Below, one piece after another: positions 28,185 to 36,064 of a DNA stretch of 64,000 bases (within the stretch, counting starts at the first letter, position 1; every line of letters starts with the position of its first letter). The position numbers and the translations under genes are program-made. The stretch is from NCBI RefSeq assembly GCF_027531905.1, contig NZ_JAPZSU010000012.1, positions 28,672 through 92,671 on the forward strand, read 5' to 3'. The notes beneath the pieces are model-generated. The model was not told where the DNA came from. It saw only the letters and a list, made by a program, of their open reading frames with translations, and searched no databases. This DNA comes from Flavobacterium sp. GTDB lineage: Bacteria; Bacteroidota; Bacteroidia; Flavobacteriales; Flavobacteriaceae.

Positions 28185-29120
28185 ATGAAAAAAATAATAC
28201 GTTTTGTGTTTTTTTTATTTTTTATAACAAAAGCCTCTGCGCAGCAAGATCCCCATTTTACTCAATATATGACTAATATGAGCGTGATTAATCCAGCTTA
28301 TACAACAGGAAATGCTTCTGTACTCAATTTAGGAAGTTTGTACCGCTATCAATGGTCAGGAATTAAAGGAGCCCCAAGAACGATAACTTTATTTGCACAT
28401 ATGCCTTTCTACGAAAAACTAGAAGGTGGATTTTCTTTGATTTCAGATGATATAGGAGATGGTGCTAAGAAGGAAACTAATTTTTTTGCTGATTTTGCAT
28501 ATAATTTTCAACTAAATGAGAGGCAACGCATAGCGTTTGGCGTTAAAGCGGGAGTCAGCGCTATTACTACAAATTTTAATGGATTCCGATTAAATAGTGG
28601 TAATAGCACTACTGATAATGCATTTGCTGAAAATATAAATGAAACGGTTCCTAATATTGGAGTTGGTGCTTATTTTTTTGGGGATAAATATTATGTTGGG
28701 CTCTCGATTCCCAACTTGCTTTCTGCGGAACATATCAAGTTTAGACCCACTATAAATTCCTTTGGCCCACAAGAAATCCATACTTTTTTTACGGGAGGAT
28801 ATGTACTTGATATTAATGAAGCATTTAAACTTAAGCCTGCTTTTATGACTGTTTTTGTAAAAGGAGCCCCAGTATCTGTAGATTTAACAGCAAATGTTTT
28901 GTACAACGAAAAGTTTGAATTAGGAGCGGCCTACCGCTTTAATGATTCGGTTAGTCTTTTGATGAATGTTAATGTAACGCCTAGCCTTAGAATTGGTTAT
29001 TCTTATGATTACACTACTTCTAATCTGAGTCAATTTAATTCGGGTTCACACGAAATTGTACTCTTGTATACTCTCAATTTATTAGGTAAAGGTTACGACA
29101 AATCACCAAGATTCTTTTAA
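28185..29120 (+). CDS. PorP/SprF family T9SS outer-membrane protein
   Basis: The 311-aa product starts with a signal peptide ending ASA and the family signature QQDPHFTQYMTNMSVINPAYTTG. A beta-barrel follows, with YRYQWSGIKGAPRT and SLRIGYSYDYTTSNLSQF. In Flavobacterium johnsoniae SprF is needed for secretion of the adhesin SprB, and paralogues are paired with other type B cargo. Here it lies 28 bp after such a cargo gene, so it is probably its dedicated partner. Confidence 0.93.
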   Translation: MKKIIRFVFFLFFITKASAQQDPHFTQYMTNMSVINPAYTTGNASVLNLGSLYRYQWSGIKGAPRTITLFAHMPFYEKLEGGFSLISDDIGDGAKKETNFFADFAYNFQLNERQRIAFGVKAGVSAITTNFNGFRLNSGNSTTDNAFAENINETVPNIGVGAYFFGDKYYVGLSIPNLLSAEHIKFRPTINSFGPQEIHTFFTGGYVLDINEAFKLKPAFMTVFVKGAPVSVDLTANVLYNEKFELGAAYRFNDSVSLLMNVNVTPSLRIGYSYDYTTSNLSQFNSGSHEIVLLYTLNLLGKGYDKSPRFF

Positions 29121-29131
29121 ATACTACAAAC

Positions 29132-31318
29132 ATGAAAAATATCTATATAATTCTAATCGTGTTAGTATACCAATTTGCGATTGGTCAACAACAAGAATTA
29201 CAACGCGCTAACGTTTTGTTTAATAAAACCTATTACAGTGCCGCAATTCCTTTATTTGAAGAAATAAACAAAAAAAGACCAACGAATGAAGTGATTCAGA
29301 AATTGGGAGATTGTTATTATTATACGAATCAGTATGATAAAGCACAAAGACAATATGCTCTTTTATCGAAAAAGAATGCTTTAACGGAAGAGTTTTATTT
29401 TAGACATGCACAAACATTAAAAGCTATTGGAAAATACGATGATGCCATTACTTTATTACGCCAATATTATACCGATGCCAATGATGCTACTGCCATTGAA
29501 AAATTAGAAGAAGGTATTAAACAGCTAAAAAACATAACCGCAATAGGCGACAGATTTGTAATTCAGAATTTGGCGCTAAATACCATGAATTCTGAGTTCG
29601 GTGGTGTGGTTTGGAACGATAATTTAGTATTTGCTGCGGTTAAATTAAAACCAAACCTTTTTGACAAAACTTATAAATGGAATAATGAATCCTATCTAAA
29701 TTTGGTGAGCATTCCATTGGCTGACGTCAATTCAAAAGACACTTTAGTGAATTATTTTTCAAAAGATTTAAAATCAGCCTTGCATGAATCGAATGCTGTA
29801 TTTACGAATGATGGTAAAACAATGTATTTTACTAGAAACAATTCAAAAAACGGAAAGAGAGTTAAAAACAGTGCTAAGGTTTCGAATATTCAAATTTTTA
29901 GGGCTGATTTTGTAAATAATAAATGGACCAATATTCAATCTTTACCGTTCAATAGTCCTGAGTATTCCGTAGAGCATCCAGCGCTGAGTCCAGATAATAA
30001 AACCTTGTATTTTGCTTCAGATATGCCAGGGACTTTGGGATCCTTAGACATTTTTAGCGTGACTATTGAAGGCACAAGTTATGGAAAACCAGTGAATCTT
30101 GGGAAACAAATAAACACTGTTAAGAGAGAACAATTTCCATTTGTTTCCAATGACAATAAATTATATTTTTCTTCGAATGGACATGAAGGATATGGTGGTT
30201 TAGATATTTTTGTTTCTGATTTAGGCGCTACTTTATTAAAAGCTTCGAACGTTGGGCTACCAGTCAATTCTGGTTATGACGATTTTGCTTTTTACATTAA
30301 TTCAGATTCAAAAGAAGGCTTTTTTAGTTCGGATAGACCCGGCGGAAAAGGAAAAGATGATATATACGCTTTAAAAGAAACCAAAGAGTTACTGATTGAG
30401 AATTGCAAACAGTATATTGCAGGAACGATCACTGATACAGATTCACATCTCGCACTCGATAAGGCACTCGTAGTGCTAAAAAATGGGAGCAACCATGAAT
30501 TGGAAAGAGTGATTACCTCGATAGATGGAAAGTTCCATTTTGCAATTGAATGTGAATCTAAGTATTCAATAAGCGTTACCAAAGAAAACTATACTGAAAA
30601 CTCTAGAAATTTATCAAGCACTGCGGAAAGAAATATGAGCAATGATGGATCTATGACTATTCGTTCTTTGGAAGCAATCAAAAAAGAGCAACAATTTATT
30701 CTTGACCAAAAAAAGGCGAATGATTTATTAATCGCCCAACAATTGAAAGCGGCTGAACTAGTTGCCTTGGCAAAAAAGAAAAAAGAAGAGGCTATAGCAC
30801 TCGAAAATAAAAAGAAGGAAGATTTGGCAGCCCTTTCTCAACTGAAAAAGGACAAAGAATTAGCTGATAAAAAAGCTGCTGAACTTGCAATTGCTAAGAA
30901 AAAAGAAAAAATGGCCACTATTATTGCAGCAGAAAAAGATGTGGTAAAAGAAAAAGATAGATTAATGATCAAAACTGATCCAATATATTTTGATTATACT
31001 ATGTGGTATATACGAAAAGAATCAAAAAAAATATTGAATCGTGTGGTTGAATTAATGAAGAAATATCCAGAAATGGTAGTAGAGATTGGTTCGCATACTG
31101 ATAATCGTGGGAACCAGATATTTAATGCTGAGCTTTCTCAAAAAAGAGCTGATGCTACCAAAGCGTACATAATAGAACAAGGAATTTCTAAAAATAGAAT
31201 TACGGCAAAAGGCTATGGTGAATCGGTTCCTATAGTGAAATGCATCCCTGAAGATTCATGTGATGAGGAACAACATGAACTGAATCGAAGAAGTGAATTT
31301 GTGATTAAAAACTTATGA
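29132..31318 (+). CDS. PorE-like periplasmic protein: TPR, beta-propeller, CarboxypepD_reg and OmpA domains
   Basis: Domain order in 728 aa: signal peptide (to FAIGQ), TPR-like helices (about 20-130), WD40/PD40 beta-propeller blades (about 150-390, SPEYSVEHPALSPDNKTLYFASD), carboxypeptidase regulatory fold (about 425-490), a Lys/Ala-rich coiled coil (about 510-610), then an OmpA domain (GSHTDNRGNQIFNAELSQKRA) that binds peptidoglycan. PorE of Porphyromonas has the same TPR-propeller-CRD-OmpA plan and anchors the T9SS. Located 11 bp after the PorP/SprF gene, it may anchor that paralogous complex. Confidence 0.88.
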   Translation: MKNIYIILIVLVYQFAIGQQQELQRANVLFNKTYYSAAIPLFEEINKKRPTNEVIQKLGDCYYYTNQYDKAQRQYALLSKKNALTEEFYFRHAQTLKAIGKYDDAITLLRQYYTDANDATAIEKLEEGIKQLKNITAIGDRFVIQNLALNTMNSEFGGVVWNDNLVFAAVKLKPNLFDKTYKWNNESYLNLVSIPLADVNSKDTLVNYFSKDLKSALHESNAVFTNDGKTMYFTRNNSKNGKRVKNSAKVSNIQIFRADFVNNKWTNIQSLPFNSPEYSVEHPALSPDNKTLYFASDMPGTLGSLDIFSVTIEGTSYGKPVNLGKQINTVKREQFPFVSNDNKLYFSSNGHEGYGGLDIFVSDLGATLLKASNVGLPVNSGYDDFAFYINSDSKEGFFSSDRPGGKGKDDIYALKETKELLIENCKQYIAGTITDTDSHLALDKALVVLKNGSNHELERVITSIDGKFHFAIECESKYSISVTKENYTENSRNLSSTAERNMSNDGSMTIRSLEAIKKEQQFILDQKKANDLLIAQQLKAAELVALAKKKKEEAIALENKKKEDLAALSQLKKDKELADKKAAELAIAKKKEKMATIIAAEKDVVKEKDRLMIKTDPIYFDYTMWYIRKESKKILNRVVELMKKYPEMVVEIGSHTDNRGNQIFNAELSQKRADATKAYIIEQGISKNRITAKGYGESVPIVKCIPEDSCDEEQHELNRRSEFVIKNL

Positions 31319-31403: not shown

Positions 31404-32048
31404 TTAGATGAAAACAATTCTGTTTTTTATAGCATAAAGGACTAATCCAATTCTAGTTTTAATTTCTAATTTTTCAAATAGGGATTCTCTGTAGCCATCG
31501 ATTGTCTTTGGGCTAAGGCACATTTCGTTAGCAATTTCCTTGTATGTTTTTTCGCTACATGCTAATTTAATAAAAATGAGTTCTTTTTCTTTTAAGGTGA
31601 TTTTTTTACTGTCACTATCAATTTTATTAATCAAAATAGAGGAAACCAACTCTGTAAAATAATAGCCCTTTTCGATTACCGCAATAATTGCTTCTTGAAA
31701 GATTTTTGGACTGGTATCCTTTAGTAAATATCCTTTGGCTCCATTGGTTATCATTTTTATGATGGTTTCATCGTCATTTTTTACTGAGAGCGCTATAACG
31801 TTCAGGTTGGGCTGGTTTTCCTTTATCCATTTAATGGTGCTTAACCCATCTAAAATAGGCATATTCACATCCAAAAGGACCAAATCGACAATGGTATCGG
31901 GGTTTTCCTGAAGATGATGGATAAATTCTTTACCATTCTCAAAGCTGTTTACCACTTCAAAATCATCAAAACTATTGATTAAGAGTTTTAAAGATTGAGA
32001 AAAGAGGAGATGATCATCTACTATGATTATTTTATTGGTAGTCTTCAT
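31404..32048 (-). CDS. NarL/LuxR-type response regulator
   Basis: The 214-aa regulator has a receiver (IIIVDDHLLFSQSLK, phospho-Asp in LVLLDVNMPILDG, Lys in LLKDTSPKIF) and a LuxR helix-turn-helix (CSEKTYKEIANEMCLSPKTIDGYRESLFEKL). It overlaps the histidine kinase gene by 17 bp and is the last gene of a four-gene operon. The likely target is the divergent DUF2589 gene set or its own operon, by position only. Confidence 0.92.
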   Translation of the reverse strand: MKTTNKIIIVDDHLLFSQSLKLLINSFDDFEVVNSFENGKEFIHHLQENPDTIVDLVLLDVNMPILDGLSTIKWIKENQPNLNVIALSVKNDDETIIKMITNGAKGYLLKDTSPKIFQEAIIAVIEKGYYFTELVSSILINKIDSDSKKITLKEKELIFIKLACSEKTYKEIANEMCLSPKTIDGYRESLFEKLEIKTRIGLVLYAIKNRIVFI

Positions 32049-32826
32049 GATTTGGGGATAAAGGATATATTAACTTAATTGAGGTGCCCTTATTGTTGGA
32101 ATTTATATCTATTGATGCGCCAATAAGCTGGGCTCTTAGTTTCATATTGTTCAATCCAGAACCGGTATATAATTCATTGGTATTGTATCCAATTCCGAAA
32201 TCTGTTAAGGTTAACAGGAAATAATCTTTTGAAGTTTGAATGGTGATTTCAAAAGTTTCACTGTGCGAATGTTTTAAACTGTTGTGAATGGCTTCTTGAA
32301 AAATCCGGTAAATAAATAATTCGTGCTCGAAATCTATCGGTGGTGAAAGACCATCCCAGTTCAAGATGCACTTGATTTTTTTTAACTTTTTAATTTTATC
32401 TAAGTCTAATTGAATCGCCTCAATAAAATTGTATTGTAAGGTATTTTCTTTGTTTATTATTGTTGATAAAATTCTAATTTCATCTAATGCGTTGGCGATA
32501 AGGTCTTTTAAGTCAATAAGATCTTTGGGTTTGACAATCTTTTTTTCATTATGTAGAAATAAGTTGAGTTGCATTATGGCCACAGATAAAATTTGACCAA
32601 TATTGTCATGAAGTTCTTTGCTAATTTCGGATAAGGTTTGATCTTTGATTTCTATCCTTGTTTTTACTAGTTCGGATTGAAAGTAATGTTCGGACTTCAT
32701 TTGTTCAATCAAAAAAGAATTCTTTTTCTTTGAAAAATAGAAGAACAAAGTCAGTAGTATTACAATTAAAGTAAAGAATACTATACTTAGTGAAATAATT
32801 AATAGTTGTATCTCTTTTCGCTCCAT
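32032..32826 (-). CDS. Sensor histidine kinase (HisKA_3 / HATPase)
   Basis: The 264-aa kinase has one N-terminal transmembrane helix (LLIISLSIVFFTLIVILLTLFFYF), the HisKA_3 phospho-acceptor in SKELHDNIGQILSVAIMQL, and an ATPase domain with HNSLKHS (N box) and TGSGLNNMKLRAQ (G box). It lacks a sensory domain of its own, so the seven-helix protein encoded immediately upstream (28-bp overlap) may supply sensing. It pairs with the regulator downstream. Confidence 0.92.
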   Translation of the reverse strand: MERKEIQLLIISLSIVFFTLIVILLTLFFYFSKKKNSFLIEQMKSEHYFQSELVKTRIEIKDQTLSEISKELHDNIGQILSVAIMQLNLFLHNEKKIVKPKDLIDLKDLIANALDEIRILSTIINKENTLQYNFIEAIQLDLDKIKKLKKIKCILNWDGLSPPIDFEHELFIYRIFQEAIHNSLKHSHSETFEITIQTSKDYFLLTLTDFGIGYNTNELYTGSGLNNMKLRAQLIGASIDINSNNKGTSIKLIYPLSPNHEDYQ

Positions 32827-33446
32827 AAAAATCCAATGATAAAACAGCTGTTCATTAATAGATTCAATATAAAAAGCACTAGGCTAAATATTGATTCATC
32901 ATTTTTTATTAAAAACCATTTTATGGCCAGCATAAAAGGTAGGAAAGGGACGTGAAAAAGTAAAATTCCAAGGATAAACCAAAAGTAAATGGATTTCTTG
33001 AAATTAAGTATTTTTTCGGAATTAAATATTTCTACGAAGTAACAACACGATAAAAGCAAAACAAAAATGACTCCAAGAGCAAAACTATTGGTGAACACCG
33101 TATCGTTTTGGTACTGAAAATAGTAAAGGTTAAAAAAGTAGAAAAAATAAAAGGTGATTAAGAAGCTAATAGCAATCCTTTTGCATGCTAATTTTTGTAA
33201 GAGCGCATACAATAATAGGATGTAGGCGCTAAAACTAGCGAGCATATAGAAATTATAAACTGGAAAATTGATTAATCCAGTCCATGAAGTAAAATACTTG
33301 CCTATAAATTCTGTTAAAAACGAGAATACAATGATATACAATACAAATTTAGCTTTATTATTAGGCAATTTATGATAGAATCGAAATCCTACTAAACTTG
33401 ATAATAAAGCTAAATAAATAATACAAAATCTTAAATCTTCAAACAT
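32799..33446 (-). CDS. Hypothetical membrane protein with about seven helices
   Basis: Family not recognised. The 215-aa protein is almost entirely hydrophobic, with about seven transmembrane helices (FCIIYLALLSSLVGF, FVLYIIVFSFLTEFIG, MLASFSAYILLLYALL and others). It has no catalytic motif I can see. It begins 3 bp after the 142-aa gene and overlaps the kinase gene by 28 bp. By context it could be the membrane sensor of the kinase. Confidence 0.75.
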   Translation of the reverse strand: MFEDLRFCIIYLALLSSLVGFRFYHKLPNNKAKFVLYIIVFSFLTEFIGKYFTSWTGLINFPVYNFYMLASFSAYILLLYALLQKLACKRIAISFLITFYFFYFFNLYYFQYQNDTVFTNSFALGVIFVLLLSCCYFVEIFNSEKILNFKKSIYFWFILGILLFHVPFLPFMLAIKWFLIKNDESIFSLVLFILNLLMNSCFIIGFLWSEKRYNY

Positions 33447-33449
33447 TTA

Positions 33450-33878
33450 TTAGATATAAGTGATTGGAGGAGGGTTACCAATGGAGCCATAGTTTAATGG
33501 CGCAATATTCAAGGAATCATCATTTTCTGCAGATTTTTCCATTTTGATGTTCTCAGTTGTTTTTTTAATTTTCTTTTTCCCAGTTGGTGCTAAAAATATA
33601 GTGGTCAATCCTGCTTTTTCAGCATAAGCTTTGTCTTCAGGATAAGCGCCAAAATGAAAACGTATTCCGTCGATTTCGCCTTTTTGCTTTTTTGCTTCAG
33701 CTTTTATATAGGCAATATAGTTTTCTAATTCCACAATAGAAAACCAAATAGCATTGGCATCTTCTTTTTTTATCGCTTCTTTAATCAAAGGATATCTGGT
33801 CTTGTTATAATTTTCATTTAGCAATTTAGCAAATTCCTTGGTAATAAGTTGTTTTGGTTTTCCTTGTTTTTGTTCCAT
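33450..33878 (-). CDS. Hypothetical 142-aa protein, first gene of the two-component operon
   Basis: Family not recognised, though proteins with this pattern recur in Flavobacteria. The N-terminal 90 residues are mainly helical (ITKEFAKLLNENYNKTRYPLIK, IWFSIVELENYIAYIKAEAKKQ) followed by GIRFHFGAYPEDK and TIFLAPTGKKK. The C-terminal part is a charged linker with a polar Pro-rich end. No signal peptide. It is the first gene behind the minus-strand promoter at 33923-33953. Confidence 0.72.
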   Translation of the reverse strand: MEQKQGKPKQLITKEFAKLLNENYNKTRYPLIKEAIKKEDANAIWFSIVELENYIAYIKAEAKKQKGEIDGIRFHFGAYPEDKAYAEKAGLTTIFLAPTGKKKIKKTTENIKMEKSAENDDSLNIAPLNYGSIGNPPPITYI

Positions 33879-33922
33879 AATGTTTTTTAGTTAAGGTTAA
33901 TTTATAGTAAAAGGTAACAGGA

Positions 33923-33953
33923 CAAAACTATTTTAATTCTTGAGATAGGACAA
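33923..33953 (-). promoter_or_regulatory. Promoter of the 142-aa/7-TM/kinase/regulator operon
   Basis: On the minus strand TTG (33953-33951), 20 bp, then TAGTTTTG (33930-33923) fits the consensus. The first start codon is about 45 nt further downstream. Confidence 0.6.
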
Positions 33954-33976
33954 GGGGAAATTCCCCCTTTTTTTTA
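33952..33976. promoter_or_regulatory. Near-perfect 18-bp dyad at the -33 element (operator or terminator-like)
   Basis: AAGGGG-AAATTC-CCCCTT (33952-33969) is an 18-bp dyad with one mismatched pair. Its edge overlaps the -33 TTG of the minus promoter. A T-run follows on the plus strand, so it could also be a terminator or attenuator in a leader reading toward the DUF2589 genes. Confidence 0.5.
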
Positions 33977-34131
33977 GGGTAAATTCAAAACGAAAAATAG
34001 GGTGTGTATGCTCTTTTGTGCAAACTTGTTATGACTCAACTTTGTATCAATCCATTTGGTGCACAAAATGGAGAGGTGGAATCTGAAAAACCTTAGTAAG
34101 AGAGTAAGAGTTAAATTTTAAAATAATAAGT

Positions 34132-34734
34132 ATGTCAAATTTAATCGCAGAATTAAATAGTTTAGATTTTAGTGTTTACATTGGTGGACCTTTGCAAGCA
34201 GCTGTTCAAGCGCAAAACGCAGCCTCTATGGCACAAGTTAATTTTATTCAATCTATTGGATTTGAAGAGGGTGCTTCTCCTACTGATCCAAAAAAATTGC
34301 GTTATGTAGATTTCAATTACAAAAAATCAGTACCTAATCCAAATTATGATCCTGATCCTACAAAAGCAAACGATCCAGGAAATACAAAATTTGATGATAA
34401 AGAGGTAGAAATTAAAGTTCCGTTTTTGACGATGTTGTCTATTCCAAGTATCAGAATTGAGGAGATGACCATTGATTTCAATGCCAAACTTACTTCTACT
34501 GAGACCAAAAGTGTTTCTAGTGAGTTTGCTGCAAGTGCTGAACTGGGTATTAACTACAAAATTGTCAATTTCAAAGCTTCTGCTTCATATAAGAGAACTT
34601 CGGTTACTGGTTCCAATGTAGAGAAAACCTATAACCTTGGGGTTCACGTTCGCGCTGTAAATGATGAAATTCCAGCTGGGTTGGATCGAATCTTAACTAT
34701 GCTAGAAGATAGCATTACGAGTGTAAACGAGTAA
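34132..34734 (+). CDS. DUF2589 domain protein
   Basis: The 200-aa protein matches the DUF2589 pattern: GGPLQAAVQAQNAASMAQVNFIQSIGF near the N-terminus, then VDFNYKK, VPFLTMLSIPSIRIEEMTIDFNAKL, and a final beta-rich half with EFAASAELGINYKI. No signal peptide or membrane helix. The family has no assigned activity that I know. It begins a three-gene plus-strand set that diverges from the two-component operon, and a strong hairpin follows its stop. Confidence 0.83.
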   Translation: MSNLIAELNSLDFSVYIGGPLQAAVQAQNAASMAQVNFIQSIGFEEGASPTDPKKLRYVDFNYKKSVPNPNYDPDPTKANDPGNTKFDDKEVEIKVPFLTMLSIPSIRIEEMTIDFNAKLTSTETKSVSSEFAASAELGINYKIVNFKASASYKRTSVTGSNVEKTYNLGVHVRAVNDEIPAGLDRILTMLEDSITSVNE

Positions 34735-34742
34735 TAATGTTA

Positions 34743-34787
34743 AAATAGATTGGCTTTCTATTGATAAGTGATAGAAGCCAATCTATT
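34743..34787 (+). promoter_or_regulatory. Strong intercistronic hairpin between the two DUF2589-type genes
   Basis: AAATAGATTGGCTTtCTAT pairs with ATAGAAGCCAATCTATTT, about 18 bp of stem and a 9-nt loop. No T-run follows, so it is more likely an RNA stability or processing element than a full terminator. Confidence 0.6.
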
Positions 34788-34805
34788 TAAAAAAAATCAA
34801 AAACT

Positions 34806-35510
34806 ATGATAAAATTGAATGATTACTTAGGAAGTATTGTGGCTAGTTTTACCAATGCTAAAATAATGTCTGACCTTCAAACTGTAAAATTGGCTGAAGA
34901 ATATGCAAAACACGATTATTTGAAGCATTTTTCAATTCCAAGAATGCGAATTGACGATGTTGAAATGACAATTCCAATTGCCTTAGATGAAATTGAAAAC
35001 ATCTCAAAACCTCCAGTAATTGGTTTTGATAGTCTAAAGATTAACACTTTGGTTTATAGTTTTCTATTAGAAAAAATTGGAGTCTTAAAAATCACAAAAG
35101 AGCCCTCCAGATTGTTGCAAACGGAAACAGCTAAACAAGTTGGTGTTTTAGAAAAACAAATCAAACTAGCCAATAGTCACGGTCCTGTTTCGGGTTTTTC
35201 AAAAGAAATCGTAGTCTATTTTTTAAGGATAATCGAAAAGTATGCTTTGGTGAACAAAGAGGTATTAGCCAAAATGAACATTGAGTTGCTTAGTAAAGAT
35301 TTGATTGCTGTTGTAACCAAAGAAATTACTATTAATAAAGAAGTTGAAGCTTTGGCCAATCTTAATATTGTTGTTGAAGCCAGTAAATTAAGGGAACTTA
35401 AGTCTGAAAATTTGATTTTCATTAAATTGAAAATTTCTGAAAATGGTATGGAGTGGAGTAGATCTGAAAATGCAAATGGAGAAATCGAATCAAAATTATT
35501 ACCAGAATAG
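34806..35510 (+). CDS. DUF2589-like partner protein
   Basis: The 234-aa protein shares one clear motif with its neighbour: HFSIPRMRIDDVEMTIPIAL against LSIPSIRIEEMTIDF. It is preceded by a helix DYLGSIVASFTNAKIMSDLQTVKLAEEYAKH seen in DUF2589-type partners. The middle and C-terminal parts are helical, then beta-rich with a Glu-rich tail. No signal peptide. Its stop is 2 bp before the third gene, so these two are translationally coupled. Confidence 0.7.
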   Translation: MIKLNDYLGSIVASFTNAKIMSDLQTVKLAEEYAKHDYLKHFSIPRMRIDDVEMTIPIALDEIENISKPPVIGFDSLKINTLVYSFLLEKIGVLKITKEPSRLLQTETAKQVGVLEKQIKLANSHGPVSGFSKEIVVYFLRIIEKYALVNKEVLAKMNIELLSKDLIAVVTKEITINKEVEALANLNIVVEASKLRELKSENLIFIKLKISENGMEWSRSENANGEIESKLLPE

Positions 35511-35512
35511 CG

Positions 35513-36064
35513 ATGAAAAAATCAACATTGAATCTAGTTAGTGTTCTAAAAAACAATTTGTTGGAATTCCCAAAAATAACTAGAAGTCTAGAAAATAAGG
35601 ATCCGTTTTTTGTTGAGAAATTAGCAGCATGGATCCAAAAAAACGAGGAAATATTTAGCACGTATACGATTAGCGAGGTTTCTGAATTATCAGGTTTGTA
35701 TAGTAAATTGTTGATTCCAAGGTTTTCTGATACTAAAAATAGTTCTTTTAAGAAAGCGCAATTAAAAGCCGCTTCGGAGATATTATATGATTTACAAAGT
35801 TTGGTATTGACCGTTTTGAAACCCTTTGAATTGAAAGTTGAAGAATGTAGAGAATTGGTGAAACAGATAGTATTGATCATCAGTCAAGCACAAGTGGTAA
35901 AGTACGATGCTAATTTACCATTTGAAAATTTTGTAGATATCATTTGGAAATTTACCCTATCGAATGAACAATTGAAGGCAGGAGCAATAAAATTAAAAAC
36001 AATGCTAATTATGTCCGATATTCAAATGCTTATTGCAGAGGAAATTGATCTTGAAGATTTTTGA
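35513..36064 (+). CDS. Hypothetical helical protein, third gene of the DUF2589 set
   Basis: Family not recognised. The 183-aa protein is predicted almost all helical (LNLVSVLKNNLLEFPKITRSL, AQLKAASEILYDLQSLVLTVLKPF, LKAGAIKLKTMLIMSDIQMLIAEEIDL), without a signal peptide or Cys. Its 2-bp spacing from the previous gene argues for a shared complex. A terminator follows at 36134. Confidence 0.72.
   Translation: MKKSTLNLVSVLKNNLLEFPKITRSLENKDPFFVEKLAAWIQKNEEIFSTYTISEVSELSGLYSKLLIPRFSDTKNSSFKKAQLKAASEILYDLQSLVLTVLKPFELKVEECRELVKQIVLIISQAQVVKYDANLPFENFVDIIWKFTLSNEQLKAGAIKLKTMLIMSDIQMLIAEEIDLEDF

Follow-up and report, generated by a model that had tools for sequence, protein, structure and literature searches.

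A Flavobacterium two-component cassette with a probably exchangeable output, here a gene trio headed by DUF2589

A compact two-component operon and three genes headed by a DUF2589 gene face each other in a Flavobacterium genome. Do these seven genes form one system, and what might the trio do? We analyzed the locus within a 64,000-nt stretch of one Flavobacterium sp. contig (hereafter the window). Our results suggest that it is likely a two-component regulon whose output can be exchanged and in this genome is the trio, the products of which would serve as an assembly for antagonism or lysis-linked release. We are quite confident in the regulatory part of this explanation, which draws on sequence comparisons. 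That the trio makes a cytosolic protein assembly used for antagonism, or released when the producer cell lyses, is a tentative proposal.

Layout of the divergent locus

The original prediction of seven open reading frames was correct in their positions, order, and spacing. The features of the locus are the following (window coordinates):

31404..32048, minus strand: RR, NarL/LuxR-type response regulator of the cassette (Response_reg 6.5e-25, GerE 1.1e-7)
32032..32826, minus strand: HK, HisKA_3 histidine kinase (HATPase_c 4.5e-9, HisKA_3 2e-6; one N-terminal membrane helix by hydropathy)
32799..33446, minus strand: TM7, 215-aa membrane protein, putative sensor (7-8 membrane segments by hydropathy; tree)
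33450..33878, minus strand: P142, 142-aa protein, without a signal peptide here
33952..33972, no strand: palindromic operator AAGGGGAAATTCCCCCTTTTT, putative RR site between the divergent operons (comparison of promoters and genomes)
34073..34110, plus strand: DUF805b cis-regulatory RNA (RF02914; 32.8 bits, E 8.6e-8; covariation and conservation)
34132..34734, plus strand: trio gene 1, DUF2589 protein (PF11655, E 4.9e-29; conserved across phyla)
34806..35510, plus strand: trio gene 2 (IP2), 234 aa, no family (AlphaFold2 mean pLDDT 82)
35513..36064, plus strand: trio gene 3 (HEL3), 183 aa, no family, helical judging by sequence

The minus-strand genes had been described as tightly packed, and they indeed overlap by 17 and 28 bp or lie 3 bp apart; trio genes 2 and 3 are separated by 2 bp, and a 71-bp gap separates the DUF2589 gene from the 234-aa gene. 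The expected domains were all recovered: HisKA_3 and HATPase_c in the kinase, Response_reg and GerE in the regulator, and DUF2589 in the first trio protein, which passes the Pfam cut-off of PF11655 (102.1 bits vs. 23), the other two trio proteins being unmatched. The membrane protein, predicted to have roughly seven helices, presents 7-8 hydropathic segments, and the kinase is without a recognized sensor domain, as proposed, apart from its N-terminal membrane segment. Neither signal peptides nor enzyme motifs are found in the trio, again as predicted, and hydropathy assigns it zero membrane segments. No convincing Pfam or NCBIfam family was identified for P142, TM7, IP2, or HEL3. Many genomes repeat this gene order, which places the arrangement well outside anything expected by chance. 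Next to the cassette, both here (window 28185-31318) and in loci L124-L126, lie genes whose sequences suggest a PorP/SprF-like protein and an OmpA-domain protein.

The motif IPxxRI[ED][ED] was said to be shared by two of the trio proteins. It is present in both window proteins, but it has no single conserved register and homology is unsupported. Common descent of DUF2589 and IP2 is not established, because the conserved arginine lies at P+3 in DUF2589 vs. P+1 in the 234-aa family and profile comparison gave a probability of 1-3% (E 0.015 at 3%); we rejected this homology. We also rejected the third-gene proteins of tandem DUF2589 loci as a bridge between the families: these match DUF2589 (94.7%) and IP2 at only 0.1%. 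The structure model of DUF2589 was poor (pLDDT 53.8) and unfit for a fold search. The IP2 model consists of an N-terminal helix, a strand, a helical bundle, and C-terminal beta strands.

The cassette, its putative operator, and the leader RNA

A P142-TM7-HK(-RR) cassette close to the window kind was found in 12 of the first 61 same-genus genomes (window genome counted), and in this sample none of the cassettes outside the window genome has DUF2589 alongside. The TM7 family is present in 176 of 301 Flavobacteriaceae genomes. P142 is regularly followed by a TM7 gene, and its homologues outside the window's clade are mostly lipoprotein-like or membrane-anchored. A membrane protein in the corresponding position in genome G072 was rejected as a TM7 homologue by profile. 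The best NCBIfam match of HK is UhpB (E 3.5e-25, below cut-off). This kinase probably receives its signal through a receptor made of P142 and TM7.

The palindrome AAGGGGAAATTCCCCCTT in the divergent promoter is the only strong copy in the window genome, in which two-mismatch matches are at control level. The sequence AAGGGGAAANNNMCCCTTTTT is common to the P142 intergenic region of all 12 Flavobacterium cassettes. Scanning genomes, we detected the operator in 12/12 with the cassette vs. 0/10 without it, and the reversed-pattern control gave 0; this association has a Fisher p of 1.5e-6, uncorrected for descent and obtained with a pattern derived from these same cassettes. The distance from operator to leader RNA is 111-112 bp for both trio and P290 outputs. 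This common, cassette-restricted motif suggests that the palindrome at 33952-33972 is probably the binding site of the phosphorylated regulator, which, once bound, would turn on the divergent trio operon and perhaps its own operon too. Control of the trio by the regulator and a sensing role of the membrane protein are both inferred.

Extra operator sites with 0-1 mismatch immediately precede eCIS operons (L080, L086), patatin genes, and genes of 93-111-aa proteins resembling two-segment membrane proteins, and some extra sites have no evident target. In L070:1106-1387 (also L058, L064, and L071), such 93-111-aa proteins are holin-like by eye and have both the operator and DUF805b RNA in their leader; genes of the L070 type are not with the cassette and adjoin a purL-like gene. 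We considered ACGTCAAGTTYTGTCGCT, another operator-like motif, as a private operator and rejected it as too widespread. This palindrome is common to promoters of the M15 peptidase, patatin, and trio in Chryseobacterium-like genomes (L016, L019, L096-L122), in several of which the M15 gene and a UmuC-like gene point away from each other.

The DUF2589 leader contains an element common to leaders across phyla, known in Rfam as DUF805b. The window copy is below the gathering threshold (32.8 vs. 35.6 bits) and those of L132, L145, L152, and L244 are above it. A conserved stem with compensatory changes stands at the same place before the gene, the element ending 15-35 nt (mostly 21-26 nt, and about 22 nt in the window) upstream of the start codon. 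In the window, the RNA comprises a stem AGGU/ACCU and a pseudoknot UCU/AGA, with compensated changes in both. Stem and three-pair pseudoknot covary, with 98.6% of cells paired and 32 cells changed on both sides, a count that is not a blind test since the alignment was hand-cut and the pseudoknot was first noticed on the same sequences. The covariation score was 0.654 vs. 0.183 in shuffles, and slid structures were far worse. The thermodynamic fold of the leader includes the stem, and its energy is not unusual (z 0.83). The presence and structure of the RNA are supported by covariation; lying just before the DUF2589 start, it would provide a second, post-transcriptional control that tunes translation.

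DUF805b RNA precedes DUF2589 in Flavobacteriia, Bacteroidales, Balneolia, Rheinheimera, and Lysobacteraceae; it was not found in DUF2589 leaders of Chryseobacterium, Oceanobacter, Alteromonas, and some distant loci. Outputs of the P290, P515, and caspase kinds are preceded by it as well. Since DUF805b RNAs also lead many genes for secreted or small proteins of unrelated kinds, the RNA does not define function. The two other copies in the window genome (L322:2408-5814, G000 contig C9) lie by 126-aa and 183-aa orphan proteins near a LytTR two-component system, an arrangement parallel to this locus. In the full-text literature outside subscription journals, one paper names DUF2589 and none of those found for DUF805 appeared to concern the RNA; novelty is stated relative to that literature.

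The trio and its changing partners

We scanned genome contigs with a DUF2589 alignment and obtained 80 loci, in 72 of which the ORF caller recovered the DUF2589 gene. IP2 and HEL3 accompany it in 70 of these 72 loci, in order with few exceptions, and the Lysobacteraceae loci tested had the same trio by tblastn. The hosts are Flavobacterium, Tenacibaculum, Nonlabens, Chryseobacterium, Saprospiraceae, Bacteroidales, Balneolia, Rheinheimera, Arsukibacterium, Alteromonas, Oceanobacter, and Lysobacteraceae. DUF2589 is rare, occurring in 19 of 297 sampled Bacteroidota genomes. The trio probably moves between phyla, because copies of DUF2589 from Gammaproteobacteria share 64-74% identity with the Flavobacterium one over the best segment. 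A phage or plasmid origin was rejected: the trio proteins had no convincing match in PHROGs or PADLOC, and the search gave zero phage matches and one weak plasmid match (25.7%, Burkholderia stagnalis). IP2 was not found in the viral contigs searched.

Several loci present reduced or extended versions of the system. Short remnants of a LytTR regulator gene lie beside an intact trio in L144:8677-8793 and L147:8673-8786, which suggests loss of the regulator with retention of the trio. In L236:7137-7679 and L247:7513-7770, HEL3 is divergent from P142 without neighboring DUF2589 or IP2 and may represent a decayed or reduced output. Small zinc-ribbon-like proteins are encoded within DUF2589 operons of distant genomes (L309:8710-8916, L300:11001-11318).

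Examining the neighborhood in other genomes, as had been proposed, we found that the trio and the two-component genes co-occur. This is the case in F. tiangeerense, F. succinicans, Flavobacterium I-STPP5a and 9AF, Tenacibaculum ovolyticum, the second trio of genome G531, and Nonlabens, where P142-TM7 is paired with a LytS-type kinase and a LytTR regulator that replace HisKA_3/GerE. P142-TM7 adjoins the trio at 8 of 12 distinct Flavobacteriaceae loci (window, L124, L125, L126, L127, L133, L152, and L306). On the TM7 tree (43 rows, with some long branches whose exact placement is unsure), we count a minimum of five changes in trio state. Neither partner is bound to the other: the cassette has other outputs alongside in most cases, and Gammaproteobacteria and Chryseobacterium carry the trio with no adjacent cassette.

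Alternatively, the two sets of genes might only be neighbors, the cassette controlling itself and distant genes and the trio having been transferred to a permissive island that happened to adjoin it. A patchy distribution of the trio, its apparent transfer between phyla, and its occurrence without the cassette in many genomes are expected from such a scenario. However, its repeated association with several TM7 lineages, the location of the genome's one strong operator in this very promoter, and the presence of two different outputs behind the same leader layout argue against mere adjacency, which we consider improbable.

Probably exchangeable outputs and candidate roles of the trio

If the locus is a regulon with an exchangeable output, here the DUF2589-IP2-HEL3 products presumably forming an assembly, the outputs found beside related cassettes may be informative. 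Several are enzymes that act on proteins or the cell wall: a subtilase accompanied by a PG-binding-like protein, proteases of caspase and trypsin-like type, an Amidase_2 enzyme, a CHAP hydrolase, and an N-acetylmuramidase found together with 671-aa/717-aa proteins. Genes of phage-tail-like contractile injection systems (eCIS) also occur. With the pheT-side neighbor constant (PheT named from its sequence), the output varies: it is the trio in L124 and L126, and P671-P717-muramidase, muramidase alone, or P290-subtilase in L038-L045. In L039:10388-15458 and its counterparts in L041, L042, and L044, the 671-aa/717-aa proteins, which have no family, and a PG_binding_1-Muramidase protein share the same cassette and operator. 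TM7-family cassettes also adjoin unrelated genes, which counts against our explanation.

Homologous cassettes beside eCIS operons, or operators before them, were found in relatives (L048, L080, L086, L246). The operator lies directly upstream of eCIS operons with 0-1 mismatch in G006 and G049, and in another genus P142 faces eCIS Pvc16-sheath-tube genes (L246). eCIS are only modestly enriched in genomes with the cassette (4/12 vs. 2/51, p 0.01, uncorrected for phylogeny), and the eCIS marker PF14065 has no match in the window genome (G000); both results count against our explanation. Elsewhere, the trio neighbors an M15 peptidase and a patatin, a CHAP hydrolase, or a subtilase, and a peptidoglycan hydrolase adjoins it in Chryseobacterium clade 1 and Tenacibaculum; in the window, there is none in the trio operon or beside the trio. 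In Gammaproteobacteria, the trio is found alone or beside a LytS/LytTR pair, which lies inside the locus in six Rheinheimera/Arsukibacterium loci. The lack of an enzyme motif and of a neighboring hydrolase in the window, like this gammaproteobacterial setting, also weighs against our explanation.

A role in antagonism or lysis-linked release is proposed because the cassette or operator in relatives adjoins eCIS, peptidoglycan hydrolase, and protease modules; these swaps and the trio's neighbors point weakly in this direction. About as likely, and possible with the regulatory part unchanged, is that the trio forms a stress assembly made in response to envelope stress, such as a particle for storage, a phasin-like one, or one protecting the envelope. 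Its lack of toxin or enzyme motifs and of signal peptides, its stand-alone occurrence in Gammaproteobacteria, and the increase of the DUF2589-related genes AF0414-AF0417 on lactate in Archaeoglobus fulgidus (PMC3949148) are consistent with such a particle. A single kind of control region alternating between trio, eCIS, and hydrolase modules is less readily explained in this way, as are the hydrolase, patatin, or subtilase partners in several lineages.

The trio could also descend from, or be a minimal form related to, contractile injection or phage-tail genes that have degraded, since the regulator facing it is of the same kind as that of eCIS, and fibre-like genes (starting with LKxYFExGDxPTQEQYxDLIDSYID or similar) and CHAP hydrolases lie near it in Tenacibaculum and Chryseobacterium-like genomes. 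We regard this as very unlikely: no tail-protein match (sheath, tube, or baseplate) was found in PHROGs, Pfam, or PDB, and the IP2 fold search returned nothing significant, only chance-level helical matches, Avd-like bundles among them. In its most specific form, our proposal is that DUF2589-IP2-HEL3 constitutes a new kind of self-standing system for antagonism or release, without kinship to phage tails, swapped at the regulatory socket of contractile injection systems under a pseudoknotted leader RNA often kept in other phyla; at this level of detail, it is rather doubtful.

With these results, what was an orphan DUF becomes part of a defined system of three genes, for which a regulator is named, an operator predicted, and a leader RNA described. 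They also suggest that some Bacteroidota eCIS may be switched on by one sensing cassette acting through one operator on several interchangeable outputs. Finally, DUF805b RNA is now linked to a gene that it accompanies in several phyla, and its structure is extended by a covarying pseudoknot.

GerE regulators at eCIS loci are already known: according to passages of Geller et al. 2021 (PMC8213781), they adjoin 25.8% of eCIS loci, and 9% of these loci also have an upstream kinase gene. Our cassette likewise has a GerE regulator and an upstream histidine kinase, and its relatives in L048 and L246 adjoin eCIS; P142, TM7, the operator, non-eCIS outputs, and DUF2589 do not appear in those passages. 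The first trio gene clearly belongs to DUF2589 (PF11655), a family without assigned function whose steady partners IP2 and HEL3 are absent from all libraries searched. Relative to DUF805b (RF02914), the window copy has the stem, the GAAAA loop, and a AGAGUAGG-like tail just before the start codon, whereas its pseudoknot is absent from the consensus line shown by cmscan. In the UhpB-UhpA system, the kinase uses a separate membrane protein, UhpC, as sensor. Although TM7 is without a Pfam family, P142 is without a counterpart, and the targets are different, our cassette likewise combines a HisKA_3 kinase and a LuxR-type regulator with a separate membrane protein.
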